From contig JACGCK010000128.1 of assembly GCA_014925825.1 (NCBI GenBank), positions 1-64,000 on the forward strand: a DNA stretch of 64,000 bases, given 5' to 3'. The translations under genes and the position numbers were made by a program. This stretch comes from Pholiota molesta (Eukaryota > Basidiomycota > Agaricomycetes > Agaricales > Strophariaceae). Below the pieces are notes generated by a model that was not told where the DNA came from, ran no database searches, and saw only the letters and a list, made by a program, of their open reading frames with translations. Positions 50,236 to 63,299 of the stretch are shown here, piece after piece (position 1 is the first letter of the stretch; the number at the start of each line of letters is the position of its first letter).

Positions 50236-50957
50236 CTATGTAACATCATCATGCCAAGGAATATCATGGGCAATGCGAAATTCATCCCATTCCTGCCATT
50301 TCTCATTCATCATCTCGTACGCAGGGACCCAATCCACGCACGTATGCGTCGCTCCGATCCTTTTCGTGGTGAAATTCCGTGTCGTAAAATCCCCCGGCTC
50401 GAGGGTGGCGTCGGCTGCACAAAGCGTCCACTGGCGGAGATAATTATAGCAGTGCAGGATGTGCGCCTGGCGCGCGTGGCTGAACGTCTTCCAGCCCTGC
50501 TCGATGGTGGTGCGGATCCAGCGCAGGCAGTGCAGCTCGTGGAACATCGCGACGGCGAACATGCGCTCCTCCTCCCCGATGCGGACGTGCCCGTCGCCGT
50601 TGCTCGCGGTCCACAGCCATTCCGCTTCTGATTCGGGCGCGACTAGGTCGTAGTGGACGCTCTCTTGGACTGTCACTTTGACGAGTCTCTCTTCGATGGG
50701 AAGCCGTATTGGATGGTCGTCGCCAATGAAAGCTAATAAGACGATTGTTTCAGAAAGCGCCCGCGCTGAATAAACGGAAGGATCTCACAGTACGAGTCAA
50801 TCGGGCGCACGACTGGACTTCTCCTTTGCTGCAATTGGAGGAGCTTCTTCAAATCCTTCGAAAGCGTCATAAGAGACCAGGTCAAATACAATGAACTTGT
50901 CGCCAGTAGCAGCAATGAGAATAGTTGAGCCTTTTCCCGTATTCCCTTGCTCTGCAT
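50236..50957 (-). CDS. UstYa-family (DUF3328) protein 1, both HxxHC motifs intact
   Basis: UstYa-type proteins are membrane-anchored oxidases that close rings or modify side chains in ustiloxin-type RiPPs and some other fungal peptides. Exon 1 is 50957-50789, exon 2 is 50732-50236, total 221 residues in phase. A single membrane span lies near 10-31 (QLFSLLLLATSSLYLTWSLM). The lumenal domain starts SYSFIGDDHPIRLP, continues VQESVHYDL and EAEWLWT, and has the two diagnostic motifs HELHC (121-125) and HILHC (147-151) plus LRQ, CAADATLEP and THTCVDW. Length and layout match the family. It is divergently placed 572 bases from the GNAT gene at 51530. With the repeat precursor at 58205 and the second UstYa-like gene at 62609 it suggests a peptide-modifying cluster. 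Confidence 0.92.
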
Positions 50958-51529: not shown

Positions 51530-52745
51530 ATGGCCCCTTCCTTTCACGTACAGCGCGTCTTGAATCCCACAGGTGATCGAATTTCATTTTAAGAGGCTGC
51601 TCGTTTCAGTGATTTTCTAAACTTCCTGCGTCCCTCAGAAGCCCAACTATGCGACGCAGCGGATCTGTTTACAGACCTCATGAAGACCAGTAAGTATCCC
51701 TGATTCTTTTAATATTTGCCCGGAAACTCGATCGCCTTTTTTGAATCATAGATTTGGGCGCCGTCAGTTTGGCGGGAGGCGAGATCTCCCACATGACCTG
51801 TCAGGCATTGGCCCTGTTGCGTGCAGGGGCCCTCGCTGGAGAGTATTACGAAGCTACAAATGAGGAAGGAGAGATGATTGGGTACACCATGTGGATGCCC
51901 CCTGGGCAGGAAATGTTTAGCACGTCCGTTTTAGGTTCTGTTTTGGCCCCCAAGAGATGATTTTGACAATGATCTCTTCCCCACATAGCGAAGAACAGAG
52001 GAAATTGGGATTCGACGAATTCATGACGAAGCTGTCCGATGAAGCGAAGACCTATTTCAAAACGAAGGTGACATTGCCCCATTGAATTATTGAAATAAAG
52101 TTTTGAAGCTTTTCCTACTAGTATATGGCTGAATTCCCCGGATTTGTGGCGAGTCTTCTCGGCCCAAGGGTATATCTAAAAATTTCAAACAATCTCGAAC
52201 TATCAGTTGACGATACACAATATTTAGGGGAAATTAGATTCCTGGTGGCTACACATGGCCATGGTGCGCCGCGATTTTCAAAGGCAAGGTGTATCACGGA
52301 CAATGCTCAATCTTGTCAGGGAAAAGGCGAGTACCAGGGAATTCTGCTGCTTTCAAATGACATACCTAATGTATTACGTCTCGTAGGCTGAAAAACGCGG
52401 CGAATACCTTGCGGCATGCACGACAAACGATGATAATGTGATTGTTCGTCACGTTCCGAAGTTCACGATTGACAGCTGACCCACGTTGATCTTGATTAGA
52501 TTCGTGTTTATACAGGCCTAGGTTTTGTCCATGAAGGATCCACCACGATGGATTCTCCTTGGGGTCAATGGCCGATTCATGTATTCAGGATGACATTCGA
52601 CAATCATCCGACCGCCAACTTGAAAGCTCTTTTGGTTCATTGGCTTGGGCTCCTTTTCGATAATCAAAGTAGAGTTATACGAGATATTTTGGGGAGCATT
52701 TGGGGAAGCTACCACCGCTTTCTCGTTCCGAGTTCTAAGCACTAG
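51530..52745 (+). CDS. GNAT-family N-acetyltransferase 1
   Basis: Acyl-CoA-dependent N-acyltransferase fold. Eight exons join in phase to 262 residues: 51530-51572, 51639-51689, 51752-51923, 51989-52067, 52122-52169, 52228-52326, 52389-52439, 52500-52745. Family marks: start MAPSFHVQRVLNPTEAQLC, EYYEATNEEGEMIGYTMWMP, then the core GKLDSWWLHMAMVRRDFQRQ-G with the acetyl-CoA loop around Gln149-Gly152, and the C-terminal VYTGLGFVHEGSTTMDSPWG. Intron 6 uses a GC donor (AAG|gcgagt). The last exon runs about 40 residues past the usual end. Intron positions equal those of the paralogue at 54091. In the cluster it could acylate the peptide or self-protect; this is inference. Confidence 0.88.
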
Positions 52746-54090: not shown

Positions 54091-55163
54091 ATGACATTTA
54101 CTGTTCAACGCGTCGAAAACCCAACAGGTCAGTCGCGCTCATGTCTTGTCTTACTTCCTGTTCAAACCTGTCGATTGATATAATGTTAAAGATGAACAAC
54201 TCTGCCAGGCTGTCGATTTATTCCATGAATTAATGCAACATGGTAAGCTAATATGCCCCTTTTAAATTGGACACCATTTAGCCCAGGAGGTATCTTCAGA
54301 TCGATCCGCAATTAGCATCTCGGGCGGAGATAGATCGTTAATGAGATTACAAGCCCTGACGATGTTACGAGCATGTTCTTTGCGGGGTGAATATTATACG
54401 GCCACAAATACAGATCAAGAATTGGTCGGATTTGCTGCGTGGACACCACCAGGGCAAGATATGTTTAATTCGTGAGCGACCCGCTGCAATCTCCGAAAAA
54501 TCTGGCTAACAAGATGGTGATAAATTTCAGCAAGGAGGAACGATCACACGCCTTTGATGAGTTTATGTTACGGGTGTCTGATGAAGGAAGACAATACTTC
54601 GCCACGGTAGGCATTCGCGTTTATACGATATCTTGTCTCTAACTTCTTATCGAACGATCAGTATATTCCAACGTTCTCGGCCTTTGTTGATGCTATACTT
54701 GGCCCAAATGTACATCGATTAACTCAAAAGGGACCATTTGTGAGGTTTCTAATATTCCAATATTTAGGGCAAACGAGACTCTTGGTGGCTTCATATGACT
54801 GGTGTCCGACGCGATTACCAAAAGAAAGGCATTCTTCGAAAGTTGATCAATCTTGTTCAAGAAAAAGTATGTCGACACAGCATGTTCTTGCTTCTGGCAT
54901 ACTTCTAATGTATTCCGGCATTCAATTCAGGCATCAATGGGTGGAGATAGTCTTGGCTGTACAGCTACCGATGACGCAAATGTATATTGTCCATCCCACA
55001 TTTTCAACGCTCATCGCGATTCGTGCTCATGTCTCTTTTGAAGGTGCCTGTTTACGTTGCCCTAGGCTTTACTCGTCTCGGTCAAACGATTATGCCATCT
55101 CCGTGGGGAGACTGGCCGGCGCATTTGTTCTCTTTGAATACCAGCTCCCCTAGGAGTGCGTGA
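54091..55163 (+). CDS. GNAT-family N-acetyltransferase 2
   Basis: Paralogue of the gene at 51530. Eight exons in phase give 223 residues: 54091-54127, 54192-54242, 54282-54471, 54531-54606, 54662-54709, 54768-54866, 54931-54981, 55044-55163. It starts MTFTVQRVENPTDEQLC, continues GEYYTATNTDQELVGFAAWT, then GKRDSWWLHMTGVRRDYQKK-G with the CoA loop around Gln152-Gly155, and ends VALGFTRLGQTIMPSPWGDW. Exons 5, 6 and 7 have exactly the same lengths (48, 99 and 51 nt) as in GNAT 1, so the pair arose by duplication after the introns were in place. No long reading frame reveals this gene; it was found by splicing, and all exons are intact. Confidence 0.87.
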
Positions 55164-55827: not shown

Positions 55828-56858
55828 ATGAATCAAGAGCAGGACGACTCCGAATCATTAGAGCTACTTGGCGATGAAGAATTTGACGATAGACGCGGTG
55901 AGTGCCACTCCTCAGATTCCTCGAAGAGAGCAGGGAAGTCATGGATTGGCCATAGAGCGTTCAAGTTCGTTCAAGCGGAGCGCCCTGTTCCCCAACCCAT
56001 CTACGCTCCTGTCAATGGTCTTAGTGCTCTTTTTCTTACTTGATATTATTGCTTTTATTTTCATCGGAAAACTTCTTCTTGACGCCAGCCAATCGATTGA
56101 AGGCGTTGAAAACATGGAATTTCGGAATCCGTACATTGGCCTTGACGAACTATACGGGTCCCAAAGGATCAACGTCTCTCGCTACGCTGCTCTTGTCAAC
56201 GAACCACGTTTAGCAGTGCAGATTAGCCCAGCGCATCCCGACAAGGTCTTTCCCTTCGATGTACACCGATGGCTCAGTGACTTTGGTCTTCTATCTCCTC
56301 CAGACAGACATTTGCAAGTATCAGGTAAAAACGAAGTACGCACAACTCAATTTAATCCTGATTTGTCTCTGAACGGTGTACAACTATTTTAATCTCTAGA
56401 TCCACACTGTTGTCCAGTTTAGCGTTTTGGATTATGGAATGGAAAACTGCGCCCTGGCGATACGCCTTCCGCTCCGCGGAGATACTCTTCCACATCCATT
56501 TTCACTTCCCAGCATGTTGGATACGGTACCTCTTCGAATTTGTGAAGTAGACGCAAAGAGGCCTCTGAAAGAGAGGCTTATTTCTTGGTCAACTCGTCCT
56601 ACGTGTCTTCGCCTCTTGGGCGTCGTGGAAGCAAGGATAGGCGAAGAGACTGAAACAGAGCGTTTTTTCTGTAAATCGGGTTCATTTTTAGGATATCAGA
56701 TCTCCTGCGCCGAAAATTCTCCACAATGCGAAATTGACGTGTGGACTAACCAGAACAAAACATGGGGTGAGCTCGTGTTCCGGTTGTTCGCTCTAATGGA
56801 AGCTCTGACACATGTCCTTATAGGAATCTTCATCAACCAATATCAATCCATACTCTGA
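55828..56858 (+). CDS. Single-span membrane protein, But2-like agaricomycete family
   Basis: Exons 55828-55897, 55956-56335, 56400-56766 and 56824-56858 give 283 residues in phase. The N-terminus is acidic and cytosolic (MNQEQDDSESLELLGDEEFD). One membrane span follows at about 42-63 (MVLVLFFLLDIIAFIFIGKL), then an extracytosolic domain: NPYIGLDELYGS, INVSRYAALVNEPRLAVQIS, FPFDVHRWLSDFGLL, HTVVQFSVLDYGMENCALAI, and a Cys-containing end (CAENSPQCEIDVWTNQNKTW-G). The pattern matches basidiomycete proteins often labelled ubiquitin-3-binding/But2-like; the biochemical role is unknown. The donor after SGKNE (gtacgc) is chosen because it alone restores the VVQF frame. Its place in the putative peptide cluster may be meaningful or accidental. 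Confidence 0.8.
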
Positions 56859-58204: not shown

Positions 58205-58520
58205 TCAAGAGGATTCTGCAAGGGAACGCAGCCATGCGGTATCAACAGGATCCCTCTCAGGAAGAGAACGAAGCCAGGCAGTGTCTACTGGATCAACCTC
58301 TGAAAGAGAACGAAGCCAAGCAGTGTCGATGTGGTCCCTCTCTGGAAGAGAGCGGAGCCAGGCAGTGTCGACTGGGGCATTGACTGGGGTATCTGCGAAA
58401 GCGTCAGAACAGATCGGTCCAAGATGTATATACCATACCTGGGGTGACCACAGTGACCGGTATCGCAGTAACGGCGAAAATACTGCCGATGCTGAGGATA
58501 ATGTATAGAGCTTTGACCAT
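58205..58520 (-). CDS. Secreted repeat peptide precursor (candidate RiPP precursor)
   Basis: Exon 1 58520-58439 and exon 2 58392-58205 are joined by a 46-nt GT-AG intron (CCA G|gtatgg ... ttcgcag|AT) to an 89-residue protein. Residues 1-19 (MVKALYIILSIGSIFAVTA) are a clear signal peptide. After a short Pro/Val/Thr spacer come four tandem repeats of 14 residues: VDTAWLRSLPERDH (35-48), IDTAWLRSLSEVDP, VDTAWLRSLPERDP and VDTAWLRSLAESS (77-89). DTAWLRSL is invariant in all four. This is the architecture of fungal multicopy peptide precursors. UstYa-family genes on both sides point to a dikaritin-like RiPP. Unlike known dikaritin precursors there is no Lys-Arg between repeats, and no Tyr; Trp is the only aromatic. 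Other readings: a pheromone-like signal peptide or a secreted structural repeat protein. Confidence 0.8.
58209..58376 (-). repeat. Four tandem 42-bp repeats
   Basis: Units at 58335-58376, 58293-58334, 58251-58292 and 58209-58250. Changes between units are mainly synonymous around the DTAWLRSL codons, while the linker codons differ, which indicates selection on the encoded peptide on the minus strand. Confidence 0.9.
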
Positions 58521-58569: not shown

Positions 58570-58575
58570 TTTATA
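58570..58575 (-). promoter_or_regulatory. TATA box of the repeat precursor gene
   Basis: TATAAA on the minus strand about 50 bases before the precursor start codon, in the context GGATATAAAGG. The short distance implies a very short leader. Confidence 0.45.
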
Positions 58576-60794
58576 TCCAAATCGAACATAGCTTGAACGA
58601 AGCCACGCGATCAGGTTCTCCTTCTGGTATTCCTGTCATGAGTCAGAGCCCTTCGGGTTTAATTGTTTTACCAAATAGACTTGCACGTAGGCTTAGGCCG
58701 TGATGCGAGGTCAATAATATTTTTCTGACTTGCGGATGCCGTATGTATGTTTATGATATATTCTACTTGGAATGTCGCAAGCGTCGATTGCTCGGCCACA
58801 TTCTCTTGTATACCCTTTACAATATGTGAGATCTTTTAACTAATTTGCGCTGCGGAATTGTAAATGATAATCATTGCAAAAGGTCAGATTGATTCACGAC
58901 AACGCTGGTTGCGGCTTTCGTCGGTGACGTCGGTGACTTGGAATGACTCACGTTCTCAAGTCCTAGCTGACATGTCGAAGTTTATTGAGCCGCCAAAACA
59001 GCGTCAAAATAAATCAGCCAGCACAAAAGGTTGCTGATTTAATCTCACTGCAAGTTCTGTGTTCAATTTTCTGAAACTATTTTACGCAGCCGCTTGCTGC
59101 AAAACACACAGATGGGATACATTTTCAGTGACTGTAAGGTCTTATAATTATTTTTACTCTAAAAGTTAATATATATTCTAATATTTGGCTTACCTCTCTG
59201 CGTAGACGTAGATAGAATGGGAGAGAAACTCCTTTTCAAGATTGCTTACGTTCTCGCTTGGCATCAAGTTCGGTGAAGTAGGTCCATGAAATGAAATCTA
59301 TCTTTGAATAAAACTACCACTGAATGGTTGCCAAGCATTCATTAATTTACGGAGGCAGCATAATTACATTACACCATCTCTTTCTTTAGATGTTCGATTC
59401 TTTTCTTAAGAAAAGGCCCTTCGAAACAGGCAGGTATAGGGTAGTTCTTGCAAAAAATTTGGCTAATTCCGATGTAATTCCTGGTAATTCGCTGGTGAGC
59501 TGTCTAATTTGGTCCCATCTATTCATAGTCCTATTCTCACGTGCGTGCGCCATCAAGCGCATCAATGCATCAGGCTTGGCGAAAAGAGGCGCGCACCGCG
59601 TCGTTAGCGAGACGTCACCTTGTAGTTTCTCATTCCAACTCTTGTGCAACGCAGAAACGATTTATCAAATTGCCTTTCCTACAGCCTGTTCTCTCTCCCT
59701 TAAACATTTTGAAAACCAGTCTGCTTTTAACTCCTCATCTAAAAGAACGAACTAATAGTTCGAAGATTGATAGTTTGCACCTGCAGAGTTTTTTAAGAGC
59801 CTATCGTCCAGGTTAAGGCCATCTTGTTTGAGCTTCAGTAATCTATCTGTTAGCAGAAATTTCTAAACGGGAAAGAGATCTTCAACCCTCTACTACCATC
59901 GATGAATATTCTACAGGCGCGATTTAATGAGCAGAAAATAGCAAGCAAAGAGATTAGTTACATCGAGCCCACGGCTGAGGTAGTGAAGGAGCATAGGGTC
60001 TTATTTACAAATTCTCAGCTGCTTGTCTGTGTTTGTTATATATTGAAGTCAACAAGATTAGCGCAGTACCCTTCAAATCCATTTTACTCTCAGGACCAGA
60101 CAGTCTATTTTTCACGCTGTGTCGGAGCGCTGGTACTAGGCTTTAAGCATTTACTATAGAGAAAATCGTATCTATTTTGCTCCTCGGAGGCCCTATTTTA
60201 AATTCCACCACCTACCTATCTAATGTTACTATAAACTACGTTACTGTGTTTAGTTGGTGTTTAATGAGAATCTCACGATAAGGATTCGACATTCATTCGG
60301 CTTAAGCTACTTATCGGTATTGCCCAAGGTTTTCCGCAGCATTCACCTCGTAGCCATGGCACTAAACGCCGTTTGATATTTAATTTGTCTGTTTTTGAGG
60401 AAATTCAGACTGATTATCTCTACTGAGTGCTTCATCCTACACAAGTATAGTATACCACTCGGGCGTCGTAATTTTAAGCGCTCAGGCATATTACAACTTA
60501 GGCATCATATATGTATTACAGCCTTCTAGGCATATCTGAAGTGGAAATTTTGGCTGCAGAAATTATCATGGAGAATTTCTGGGTCGTTGATGGTCAATAA
60601 GACGTCCTGTCCAGCCCATCACCTACTTAATCCGTAGTTTCAATTTTCGTATTTCAAAAACTCATAATTGACTCAAGAACAAACGATACACCGGTACTAA
60701 CCAATCATATTTATAACTTAAAGAGGATAGCTGCATTAATCGTCCATTGTTATCTAAGTACTAGTAGGAGAGATGTGCCACCATTTTGATTCAA
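58576..60794. other. AT-rich gene-poor region
   Basis: 2.2 kb of AT-rich sequence. Frames at 59386-59755 on both strands and at 59902-60159 are not supported by motifs. It may hold old transposon debris, but no terminal repeats or catalytic motifs were seen. Confidence 0.45.
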
Positions 60795-62013
60795 TCACGA
60801 CGAACCAAGGCTTTTAGTGCTACCGTTCCACTTCTCAGTGGCGGAATCACCGAGAGTCGCGGTCCCATGGCTATATCCACCATGACTCTGCAACTCAATG
60901 CCTGAAGCGTGGACAACTGGCCTTCCATTGATGAATTCGACGTTGCTCTGGGCTTGAGTGATAACTTCGCGTCCCCAAGCACGGCCAGTGACAACGCGAA
61001 GGACGATCAACTGAGGGGCCAAGCACTATGAAGTAGGCCTGTGAGTATCATGCACAGAATTTGAAAATTGACGAAGGGACATACAGCGATCTTAGCCCAG
61101 ACTTGGCCGAATGAGATAGCTATGGGGTTACCCATAGCGTAGGGGATCAAAAACATGATTCCGAACACGCTGTAAGGAGCAGCCGACTCGACGAGCATAG
61201 ATGCAACGCTGGTGTACATCCTGGCGCTGTCTCGGCCAAGTGCCCTTGAAACGGCTTTCCCGAGCTTGAGAAGCCGGCTCACAATAAGAACGGTCGTGAT
61301 AATATTGAGAGAGATGGTGATCGTGTAGTATGGGGTGCCAAAGTTGATCGACTTTCCGTGGAAGAAGTCCCCGCCTGGCTTGCCAGCGATAACAAGTTCG
61401 ATAATAGCCAGAGCTTTAAGTCGTGATTAGATTCAATAATACTCAAAAATATCATGGGTGACTTACAAAGTGCAACGAGGTATGCAAGAACTGGGAAGGC
61501 TATTACGATCCATCTTGATCCATATATAACATAGAGGCGGTAGAGCTTTTTGAAAGATGAGCAAAGTGAAAGTACTTGGGACAAATATAGGCGCCTACCA
61601 GTAAGGCGTCACCCATGAAGATCATGATCACAACGGCGGCAGAGCCCATAGTTTGATACCATGCAGCGGTCTGAGTAGCAATGAAGCCCGGAACACCGCC
61701 TGGCCCGTTGCGCCCTTCGATCCACATCAGCTCGCCCCATACCGCGTTGACAGAGACATCGACAGTGATGAGCAGCAGGAGGATAGTACTATATATGGCG
61801 AAGAACCTCCGGCTTTTTGGAGAATTATGATTGTTTTTTCGTAATAGACCCTGCAACGTCAGAAAATACATGATGAGGTTTATCCCTACATGGGCGATCA
61901 GCATACTGATCTAAGTATTGTACAGCCCTAACACCAGACGTACCGTAGAGGATACCGCTCATGTAGCTTCCAATGTAGAAAGAATGTTCGAACTGGGAAA
62001 GTGCGTCCGCCAT
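60795..62013 (-). CDS. Seven-span integral membrane protein, agaricomycete family
   Basis: Five exons (62013-61944, 61885-61599, 61545-61467, 61413-61085, 61025-60795) give 331 residues in phase. It begins MADALSQFEHSFYIGSYMSG and shows about seven hydrophobic segments: GILYGINLIMYFLTLQGLL, FFAIYSTILLLLITVDVSV, the QTAAWYQTMGSAAVVIMIFM segment, WIVIAFPVLAYLVALSLAII, TITISLNIITTVLIVS, YSVFGIMFLIPYAM, and ACLAPQLIVLRVVTG. The C-terminus is cytosolic-looking and polar. This large basidiomycete family has no known biochemical function; a receptor or transporter role is only suggested by topology. The last intron uses the acceptor at 61026 because it alone restores the LAPQLIVL frame. In the cluster it could serve export or sensing of the peptide. 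Confidence 0.88.
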
Positions 62014-62608: not shown

Positions 62609-63299
62609 ATGTCCACATCCTCGAAGCAGCGCTATACACTATCTTTCGCTGGTATAAGCTTAGTGTTCGTGGGCTTGAGTCTCTTGGTCAAGCTTGCGGG
62701 ATCAATATGGATCCATAAACAGATCGCCCATTTGACAAGGGAATACAGTGAGTAGCATCGTCGTCGGTAACTTGCAGACATTCTGCCATTTCTGAGCCTC
62801 GTTCCCTTTGCTTGCGGGGTCCTGCTTCTCAGGCTACGTAGGAAACGACTATCCTGAAGTATGGCCTATTGAACGCAAATCTGTCCTGATGACATTCGAC
62901 AATCCCAAGCACTTTCGCTTGGACACTGAAGATGGCGCCGCCGAGTGGGCCGCCATCGCACCTCAAAACGGTATCGTGCATCTTGGGCCCCACCGACAGC
63001 CATTCACCGTCGCCATGATGCACCAACTCAAATGTCTCGACATCCTTCGCCAAGAGATGGTGCGGGACCGCGATGAAGACGAGCAGCCCTCTGTGCTTGC
63101 CCGCCACTGTCTAAACTACGTGCGCCAAATGGTCATGTGTCACGGCGATTTGGAGCTCGAATCGTTTCAATTTGCCTCCCACAAGAACCCAATAGACTGG
63201 CACGGGGTGTATGAATGCAAGGACTGGGAAGTAGTGTTCAACGAGGTGCAGCGGAATCAAGCAGAGCATGGGAAGTGGCTGGAAACCCACGCAACGTAA
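62609..63299 (+). CDS. UstYa-family (DUF3328) protein 2, degenerate HxxHC motifs
   Basis: Exon 1 62609-62747 and exon 2 62833-63299 give 201 residues. A membrane span lies at about 10-35 (TLSFAGISLVFVGLSLLVKL). The domain begins SYVGNDYPEVWPI as in UstYa proteins (compare SYSFIGDDHP in the first copy), and continues AEWAAIAPQNGIVHLG, MMHQLKCLDILRQ and LARHCLNYVRQMVMCHGDLE, ending in GVYECKDWEVV. In the motif positions it reads HQLKC (110-114) instead of HxxHC, and LxxHC (135-139) instead of HxxHC, so one His of each pair is replaced. Basidiomycete members with this pattern exist as far as I recall, so it may be a separate subfamily rather than decay. The frame is intact. Confidence 0.88.

Follow-up and report, generated by a model that had tools for sequence, protein, structure and literature searches.

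We report a minus-strand gene of Pholiota molesta (58520..58205) that encodes a protein of 89 residues with four exact DTAWLRSL octapeptides at a 14-residue spacing. At a probability of roughly 70%, we read this protein as a multi-copy precursor of a UstYa-type RiPP of a mushroom, processed without Kex2 sites. Five observations favor this reading: the UstYa genes that flank the precursor on both haplotypes, the ratio of synonymous to nonsynonymous differences within the octapeptides (22:0), a database protein with related units (P0070), the HxxHC(x)nHxxHC motif of one flanking enzyme (UstYa-L), and the arrangement of genes on another contig (C135). The coordinates of all features in the window, i.e., the whole 64,000-nt stretch of DNA that was analyzed, are collected in Table 1.

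Table 1. Precursor gene, its repeat units and neighboring genes in the window.
Feature	Position	Strand	Remarks
Precursor exon 1	58439..58520	-	82 nt; signal peptide (MVKALYIILSIGSIFAVTA, by inspection) and start of leader
Precursor intron	58393..58438	-	46 nt, GT..AG; GTATGG...CGCAG; CTGAC branch-point-like sequence; kept in other haplotype
Precursor exon 2	58205..58392	-	end of leader, four repeat units, stop
DTAWLRSL copy 1	58346..58369	-	DTAWLRSL-PERDHI (linker PERDHI)
DTAWLRSL copy 2	58304..58327	-	DTAWLRSL-SEVDPV (linker SEVDPV; SEADPV in other haplotype)
DTAWLRSL copy 3	58262..58285	-	DTAWLRSL-PERDPV (linker PERDPV)
DTAWLRSL copy 4	58220..58243	-	DTAWLRSL-AESS (tail AESS)
TATAAA box	58570..58575	-	55 nt upstream of precursor ATG; sequence match only
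UstYa-L, canonical UstYa/DUF3328	50236..50957	-	221 aa; HELHC and HILHC; intron 50733-50788; PF11807, 59.8 bits; one TM-like stretch by inspection
UstYa-R, UstYa/DUF3328 with degenerate motifs	62609..63299	+	HQLKC and LARHC; PF11807, 61.9 bits; one TM-like stretch by inspection; intron acceptor uncertain, several in-frame candidates
But2-like protein	55828..56858	+	one TM-like stretch; exon borders provisional, joined by eye; PF09792, 19.8 bits, below cut-off of 24.2
GNAT acetyltransferase	54419..55163	+	PF13673 and PF00583 over cut-off; exons joined by eye; 5' end outside model
Second, diverged GNAT copy, possibly degraded	51871..52595	+	in tandem with GNAT acetyltransferase
Multi-pass membrane protein	61051..62013	-	no Pfam match; 3' end outside model

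The precursor is a real gene. Translation starts at the ATG at 58520, and the protein reads MVKALYIILSIGSIFAVTA-IPVTVVTPDTPVNAPV followed by the four DTAWLRSL units. Its first 19 residues were judged by inspection to be a signal peptide, and the short leader IPVTVVTPDTPVNAPV stands between this and the repeats. At the DNA level, the array is a direct repeat with a 42-nt spacing, and its copies share 75% and 81% identity with the reference copy. No [KR][KR] dibasic Kex2 site was found anywhere in the 89 residues, and there is no Tyr after the signal peptide. The protein, which ends in AESS, also has no Cys and no C-terminal CaaX, the ending carried by basidiomycete a-type pheromones. There was no Pfam domain in the precursor at E 0.1, and no Rfam match in the window at gathering thresholds. 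The computed unmodified [M+H]+ values are 961.510 for DTAWLRSL, 1286.674 for VDTAWLRSLPE, and 1654.855 for DTAWLRSLPERDPV. A UstYa crosslink would shift these masses by -2.016, a hydroxylation by +15.995, and an acetylation by +42.011.

Both haplotypes also carry a stretch of 14 nt (58595-58608, upstream of the TATA box) that matches the repeat at the DNA level (GAACGAAGCCACGC; its minus-strand reading resembles AWLRS). Its pattern has four matches in the window, three of which are the array itself, against 0.13 expected. This match is perhaps a decayed repeat unit.

Selection acts on the peptide of the precursor gene. In pairwise comparisons between the four units, the octapeptide blocks showed 22 nucleotide differences with a synonymous to nonsynonymous ratio of 22:0, while the three linkers showed five synonymous and 17 nonsynonymous differences. 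At least eight substitutions took place within the octapeptides, and eight of eight were synonymous and at the third codon position. The chance of this outcome is about 3e-5 if changes are independent, 27% of random changes are synonymous, and transitions are weighted 2:1. The signal peptide, the single 46-nt intron, the four repeats spaced by 14 residues, and an octapeptide that is kept while codons and linkers vary had all been described in a first-pass annotation of this DNA, which had also proposed the synonymous and nonsynonymous comparison; the description is borne out in each of these respects.

At the precursor locus at least, two haplotypes seem to be present in the assembly, which comprises 625 contigs and 65.6 Mb. 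Contig C79 aligned to the window in long blocks with 94.9-96.5% identity and one shorter block with 90.9% identity. The second allele (C79:450003-450318) is 97% identical at the DNA level and keeps the reading frame, the intron, and all four octapeptides. Eight codons differ between the alleles: four synonymously, one of them inside an octapeptide, and four nonsynonymously, of which a linker contains one and the signal peptide the other three. No match to the precursor gene was found in the assembly beyond these two haplotypes.

On both haplotypes, the precursor is flanked by UstYa-L at a distance of 7.2 kb and by UstYa-R at 4.1 kb. We had searched the assembly for UstYa before any other protein family. 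The assembly contains at least 11 exon-level PF11807 matches, on contigs C33, C79, C94, C135, and C168, and the four best of these 11 are the two flanking genes on each haplotype. Judged from the match coordinates, the stretches up to 8 kb from a UstYa match make up approximately 0.17% of the 65.6-Mb assembly. UstYa-L and UstYa-R resemble each other in build, but the double HxxHC motif is present in the former and absent in the latter. In CctR, a copper-dependent and dimeric member of the family, copper has been assigned to HxxHC(x)nHxxHC, and changing the motif residues to alanine abolished activity (passages of PMC12435403). Set beside the degenerate motifs of UstYa-R, these results suggest that UstYa-R is probably no stand-alone catalyst. 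Between the haplotypes, UstYa-L shows five synonymous and six nonsynonymous codon differences, which indicates only moderate constraint; the exon frame of UstYa-R shows 13 and eight, respectively.

Between the two UstYa genes lie the GNAT acetyltransferase and its diverged second copy, the But2-like protein, the precursor, and the multi-pass membrane protein. All 15 GNAT matches in the assembly at E 0.001 are at the precursor locus or its other haplotype. A sirohaem-synthesis gene (sirohaem tetrapyrrole methylase) to the right of this neighborhood looks like a housekeeping border of the locus. Apart from this border gene, no tyrosinase, methyltransferase, peptidase, or transporter was found among 20 selected ORFs and the spliced models; the 20 ORFs took in 13 of the 30 frames of at least 90 codons between 49,900 and 64,000.

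Parts of this neighborhood recur elsewhere in the assembly. For the But2-like protein, six exon-level matches fall at four places, namely both haplotypes of the precursor locus, C94:53389-53970, and C135:295176-295478; a UstYa match is no more than about 5.5 kb from each place. As its only matches in the assembly adjoin UstYa genes, the family is a candidate partner of mushroom UstYa enzymes. On contig C135, a canonical UstYa (HQLHC/HVNHC) is paired with a degenerate UstYa (HQFKC/LTHHC) that has the two changes of UstYa-R, and there are likewise a But2-like match, a membrane-protein match, and a short peptide gene led by a signal peptide. This gene (C135:287413-287684, minus strand) is spliced with two introns and encodes 52 residues, namely a signal peptide and then MPIEGDGAEGSPIDKDTLCPLVGIRACP, with the end CPLVGIRACP; only one possible core can be recognized in the peptide, and dibasic sites are absent. 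A second copy lies about 23 kb away (C135:310.1-310.4 kb) and, if the same splice sites are assumed, differs in one signal-peptide residue. There is also a weak GNAT-like match (E 0.008) near the C135 pair. The membrane-protein family, found on C135 and C168 as well, has 23 matches in all, and its recurrence therefore carries little weight.

The remaining UstYa loci have less in common with the precursor locus. Contig C94 has a single canonical UstYa (HQLHC/HVEHC), and C168 has UstYa matches at 109634-110548 with stop codons in three of four, which may mark a pseudogene. A crude scan, by hydrophobicity of unspliced frames only, found no believable precursor candidate near the UstYa genes of C94 or C168. 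A 27-residue W-L repeat 8.6 kb from the C94 UstYa was considered as a second precursor and rejected, being part of a frame of 684-711 codons (311 at C121). This frame (L018 9237-9561) has strong matches on six contigs (C94, C61, C212, C263, C356, and C121), which suggests a mobile or multi-copy gene. The gene has up to 711 codons and is probably carried by a mobile element.

We found one convincing relative of the precursor. A search with the real 89-aa protein yielded P0001 alone at E 10 or better (E 3.7); this search took proteins up to 1.75 times the query length, which P0070 (166 aa, ENA) exceeds. An artificial, lengthened query of seven units matched P0070 at E 8e-27 with 58% identity. 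P0070 contains ...APVDNTFLRALPESAPVDTAWLRALPEGEPIDAAWLRSLPEGDLVDTTFLRALPEGSLIDTTFLRALPEGSLVDTTFLRALPEPEGELFDTAWLHSPAEDL and has seven units of the form D-x-x-[WF]-L-[RH]-[AS]-[LP]-x-E after an APVD start, with five of the six unit steps measuring 14 residues and one measuring 16. It resembles the precursor in its D-x-x-[WF]-L-[RH] units and their mostly 14-residue spacing and differs in that its units vary, have W or F, and follow no evident signal peptide in the database model, which is perhaps an unspliced frame. The P0070 repeats likewise contain no [KR][KR] dibasic site.

Since the seven-unit query was artificial, we ran the reverse check with the repeat part of P0070 against the whole assembly. 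The precursor came back with E 4.1e-17 on C79 and with E 2.6e-9 and 1.2e-7 on C33; apart from it, the search gave just three weak matches to arrays (E 0.77, 2.17, and 3.04). The weak matches on C7 and C333 were rejected as 14-codon near-exact arrays in similar surroundings. The matches in both directions point to a family of repeats whose number varies and whose aromatic position is taken by W or F. What the two proteins share can be written approximately as [VIF]-D-x-x-[WF]-L-[RH]-x-[LP]-x-E, with a free part of about three residues. The first-pass annotation knew of no family with this repeat, which P0070 corrects, and it had looked to homologues with a variable repeat number, of which P0070, with seven related units against four here, is one. 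P0001 (119 aa, ENA) has TAWLR seven times at a 7-residue spacing (five of seven as DTAWLR) and no evident signal peptide. It matched the artificial query at E 0.032. It looks unrelated, and we did not count it as a relative, although kinship is conceivable.

Viral contigs scanned with P0070 and with the precursor yielded no relatives, and the best E values in a PDB sequence search were 0.09 for P0070, 0.46 for UstYa-L, and 0.28 for the But2-like protein. Our literature search returned no report of the DTAWLRSL string, and we recognized no description of a basidiomycete UstYa precursor without Kex2 sites among the titles, abstract beginnings, and selected passages covered. UstYa-L has 68 database relatives, the best being 89% identical (Pholiota conissans); 33 have an organism name, and all 33 are mushroom-forming fungi (Agaricomycetes), Psilocybe cyanescens, Gymnopilus junonius, Agrocybe pediades, and Crassisporium funariophilum among them. 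As these 68 relatives stand against one convincing relative of the precursor, UstYa-L may have another substrate.

The course that we infer for the precursor peptide, from secretion and modification to cleavage, product, and role, would begin with entry into the secretory pathway via the signal peptide. UstYa-family enzymes, membrane-anchored and facing the lumen, would then oxidize the repeated peptide around Trp (Phe in some P0070 units), probably by side-chain crosslinking or hydroxylation. Copper catalysis would fall to UstYa-L, with UstYa-R as its non-catalytic or specialized partner in a dimer, and the GNAT enzyme may acetylate the product. A protease that does not need dibasic sites would cut the linkers to give up to four copies of one small peptide. 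Kex2 acting at dibasic sites is an unlikely release step, as the precursor has no KR, KK, RK, or RR; release would call for a protease that cuts at monobasic or acidic sites and is encoded at another locus. Cutting into several identical small peptides, as first suggested for a protein of this shape, was thus not borne out in its usual form, the Kex2 route being inapplicable.

DUF3328 (UstYa) is named as the class-defining enzyme of dikaritins, or UstYa-type RiPPs, in passages of PMC12048977, and PF11807 was found on both sides of the precursor on both haplotypes. The locus resembles those of the dikaritins (ustiloxin, phomopsin, and asperipin-2a; UstYa/DUF3328 of Ascomycota) in its signal peptide, tandem putative cores, and nearby pair of UstYa-family genes. 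It differs in its basidiomycete host, the lack of dibasic Kex2 sites, Trp instead of Tyr in the repeat, one degenerate UstYa of the two, and the lack of tyrosinase, methyltransferase, and peptidase among the locus ORFs scanned. The original dikaritin definition lists tyrosinase, methyltransferase, peptidase, or transporter genes in the cluster (PMC12048977, in part), and a core Tyr is called mandatory for ustiloxins, phomopsin, and asperipin-2a in a passage of PMC7329392. Like the Kex2-processed repeat proteins (KEPs, including MiSSP8 of Laccaria), as characterized in parts of PMC6339444 and PMC7329392, the precursor is small and secreted and has at least three repeats of at least eight residues. 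It does not have the KR/KK/RK/RR separators that the 2020 survey required (PMC7329392, in part), so the rule of that survey would miss it. The gene most probably encodes a UstYa-associated peptide precursor that lacks the Kex2 sites of the known kind. It would work like a dikaritin; we call it dikaritin-like only and do not file it as a KEP.

The MSDIN (amatoxin/phallotoxin) and borosin RiPPs of Basidiomycota are likewise ribosomal peptides of mushrooms, with Trp in some cores. Borosins have a fused methyltransferase, and we know of no signal peptide or UstYa in either group; the precursor sequence has neither an MSDIN leader nor a fused N-methyltransferase. The amatoxin and phallotoxin peptides use prolyl oligopeptidase, according to a passage of PMC9233826.

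Several observations count against a UstYa-modified product. Dibasic sites and Tyr are typical of the UstYa substrates known so far, and the precursor lacks the former throughout and the latter beyond its signal peptide; UstYa-L is found far more widely than the precursor, and its constraint between haplotypes is only moderate; and neither a peptidase among the 20 ORFs scanned nor a precursor candidate beside the C94 UstYa was seen. The precursor could instead release linear, unmodified signaling or effector peptides, like MiSSP8 or Rep1, with the UstYa genes serving another substrate. A signal peptide followed by tandem repeats fits such proteins, and the 68 relatives of UstYa-L against one of the precursor indicate that the two need not travel together. 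MiSSP8 and Rep1, however, are cleaved at Kex2 sites (PMC7329392, in part), of which the precursor has none, and its position between two UstYa genes on both haplotypes also makes this explanation unlikely.

We consider it rather improbable that the gene encodes a secreted repeat protein that stays uncut and uses its 14-residue units as binding motifs, e.g., for the cell wall or a partner protein. There is no obvious cleavage site, and a binding motif would also be conserved exactly. P0070 moreover passes the UBM profile (PF14377) with 41.7 bits against a cut-off of 23.3. Its best stretch, however, covers only positions 6-20 of the 35-position profile, its units vary at the aromatic position, UBM proteins are intracellular, and the repeat region of the precursor has no PF14377 match up to E 10. 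We treat the UBM match of P0070 as the resemblance of a short D..FL.ALP pattern.

That the minus strand is non-coding here, the array being a minisatellite or part of a plus-strand gene, is highly improbable. An open plus frame of 102 codons does run over the repeat with nearly constant units (RERSQAVS three times and RERSHAVS), but the octapeptide blocks are free of residue changes in the minus frame only. Haplotype differences in the repeat stretch change the plus-frame residue in three of three cases (E/D, T/A, and L/R) against one of three in the minus frame; the second haplotype preserves the reading frame, the splice sites, and the octapeptides, and related units are coded in P0070. Finally, a mating-type pheromone precursor has a negligible probability: multi-copy secreted precursors do give rise to the alpha-type pheromones of Ascomycota, but the sexual pheromones of Basidiomycota are only a-type (both from passages of PMC6339444), the precursor has no CaaX, Cys, or dibasic site, and all 36 STE3 receptor matches are on C17, C593, and C13, with none on C33 or C79. 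Of the RiPP cores and mating signals between which the first-pass annotation hesitated, the former gain from the flanking UstYa genes and the seven-repeat P0070, and the latter fall with the missing CaaX and Cys and the STE3 genes elsewhere.

Beyond the UstYa-modified precursor itself, we propose tentatively, at somewhat below even odds, a separate class of mushroom RiPPs. Its members would have signal-peptide precursors with Trp/Phe-centered repeats, Kex2-free processing, a dimer of canonical and degenerate (HQxKC/LxxHC) UstYa proteins, and a But2-like membrane partner. Mushrooms may have many DUF3328 genes, as does Pleurotus ostreatus with 16, six of which are developmentally expressed (passages of PMC8893723), but only 103 of 1680 surveyed basidiomycete Kex2-type precursors lie near a DUF3328 gene (PMC7329392, in part). 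Should dibasic sites often be missing from the UstYa substrates of mushrooms, as they are from the precursor and the C135 peptide, Kex2-based surveys would have sought the wrong signature. The precursor locus provides a concrete putative substrate, enzyme pair, and accessory set for testing UstYa substrates that are free of dibasic sites. A Trp/Phe core, which to our knowledge lies outside the UstYa-family chemistry known so far, would, if true, widen that chemistry.
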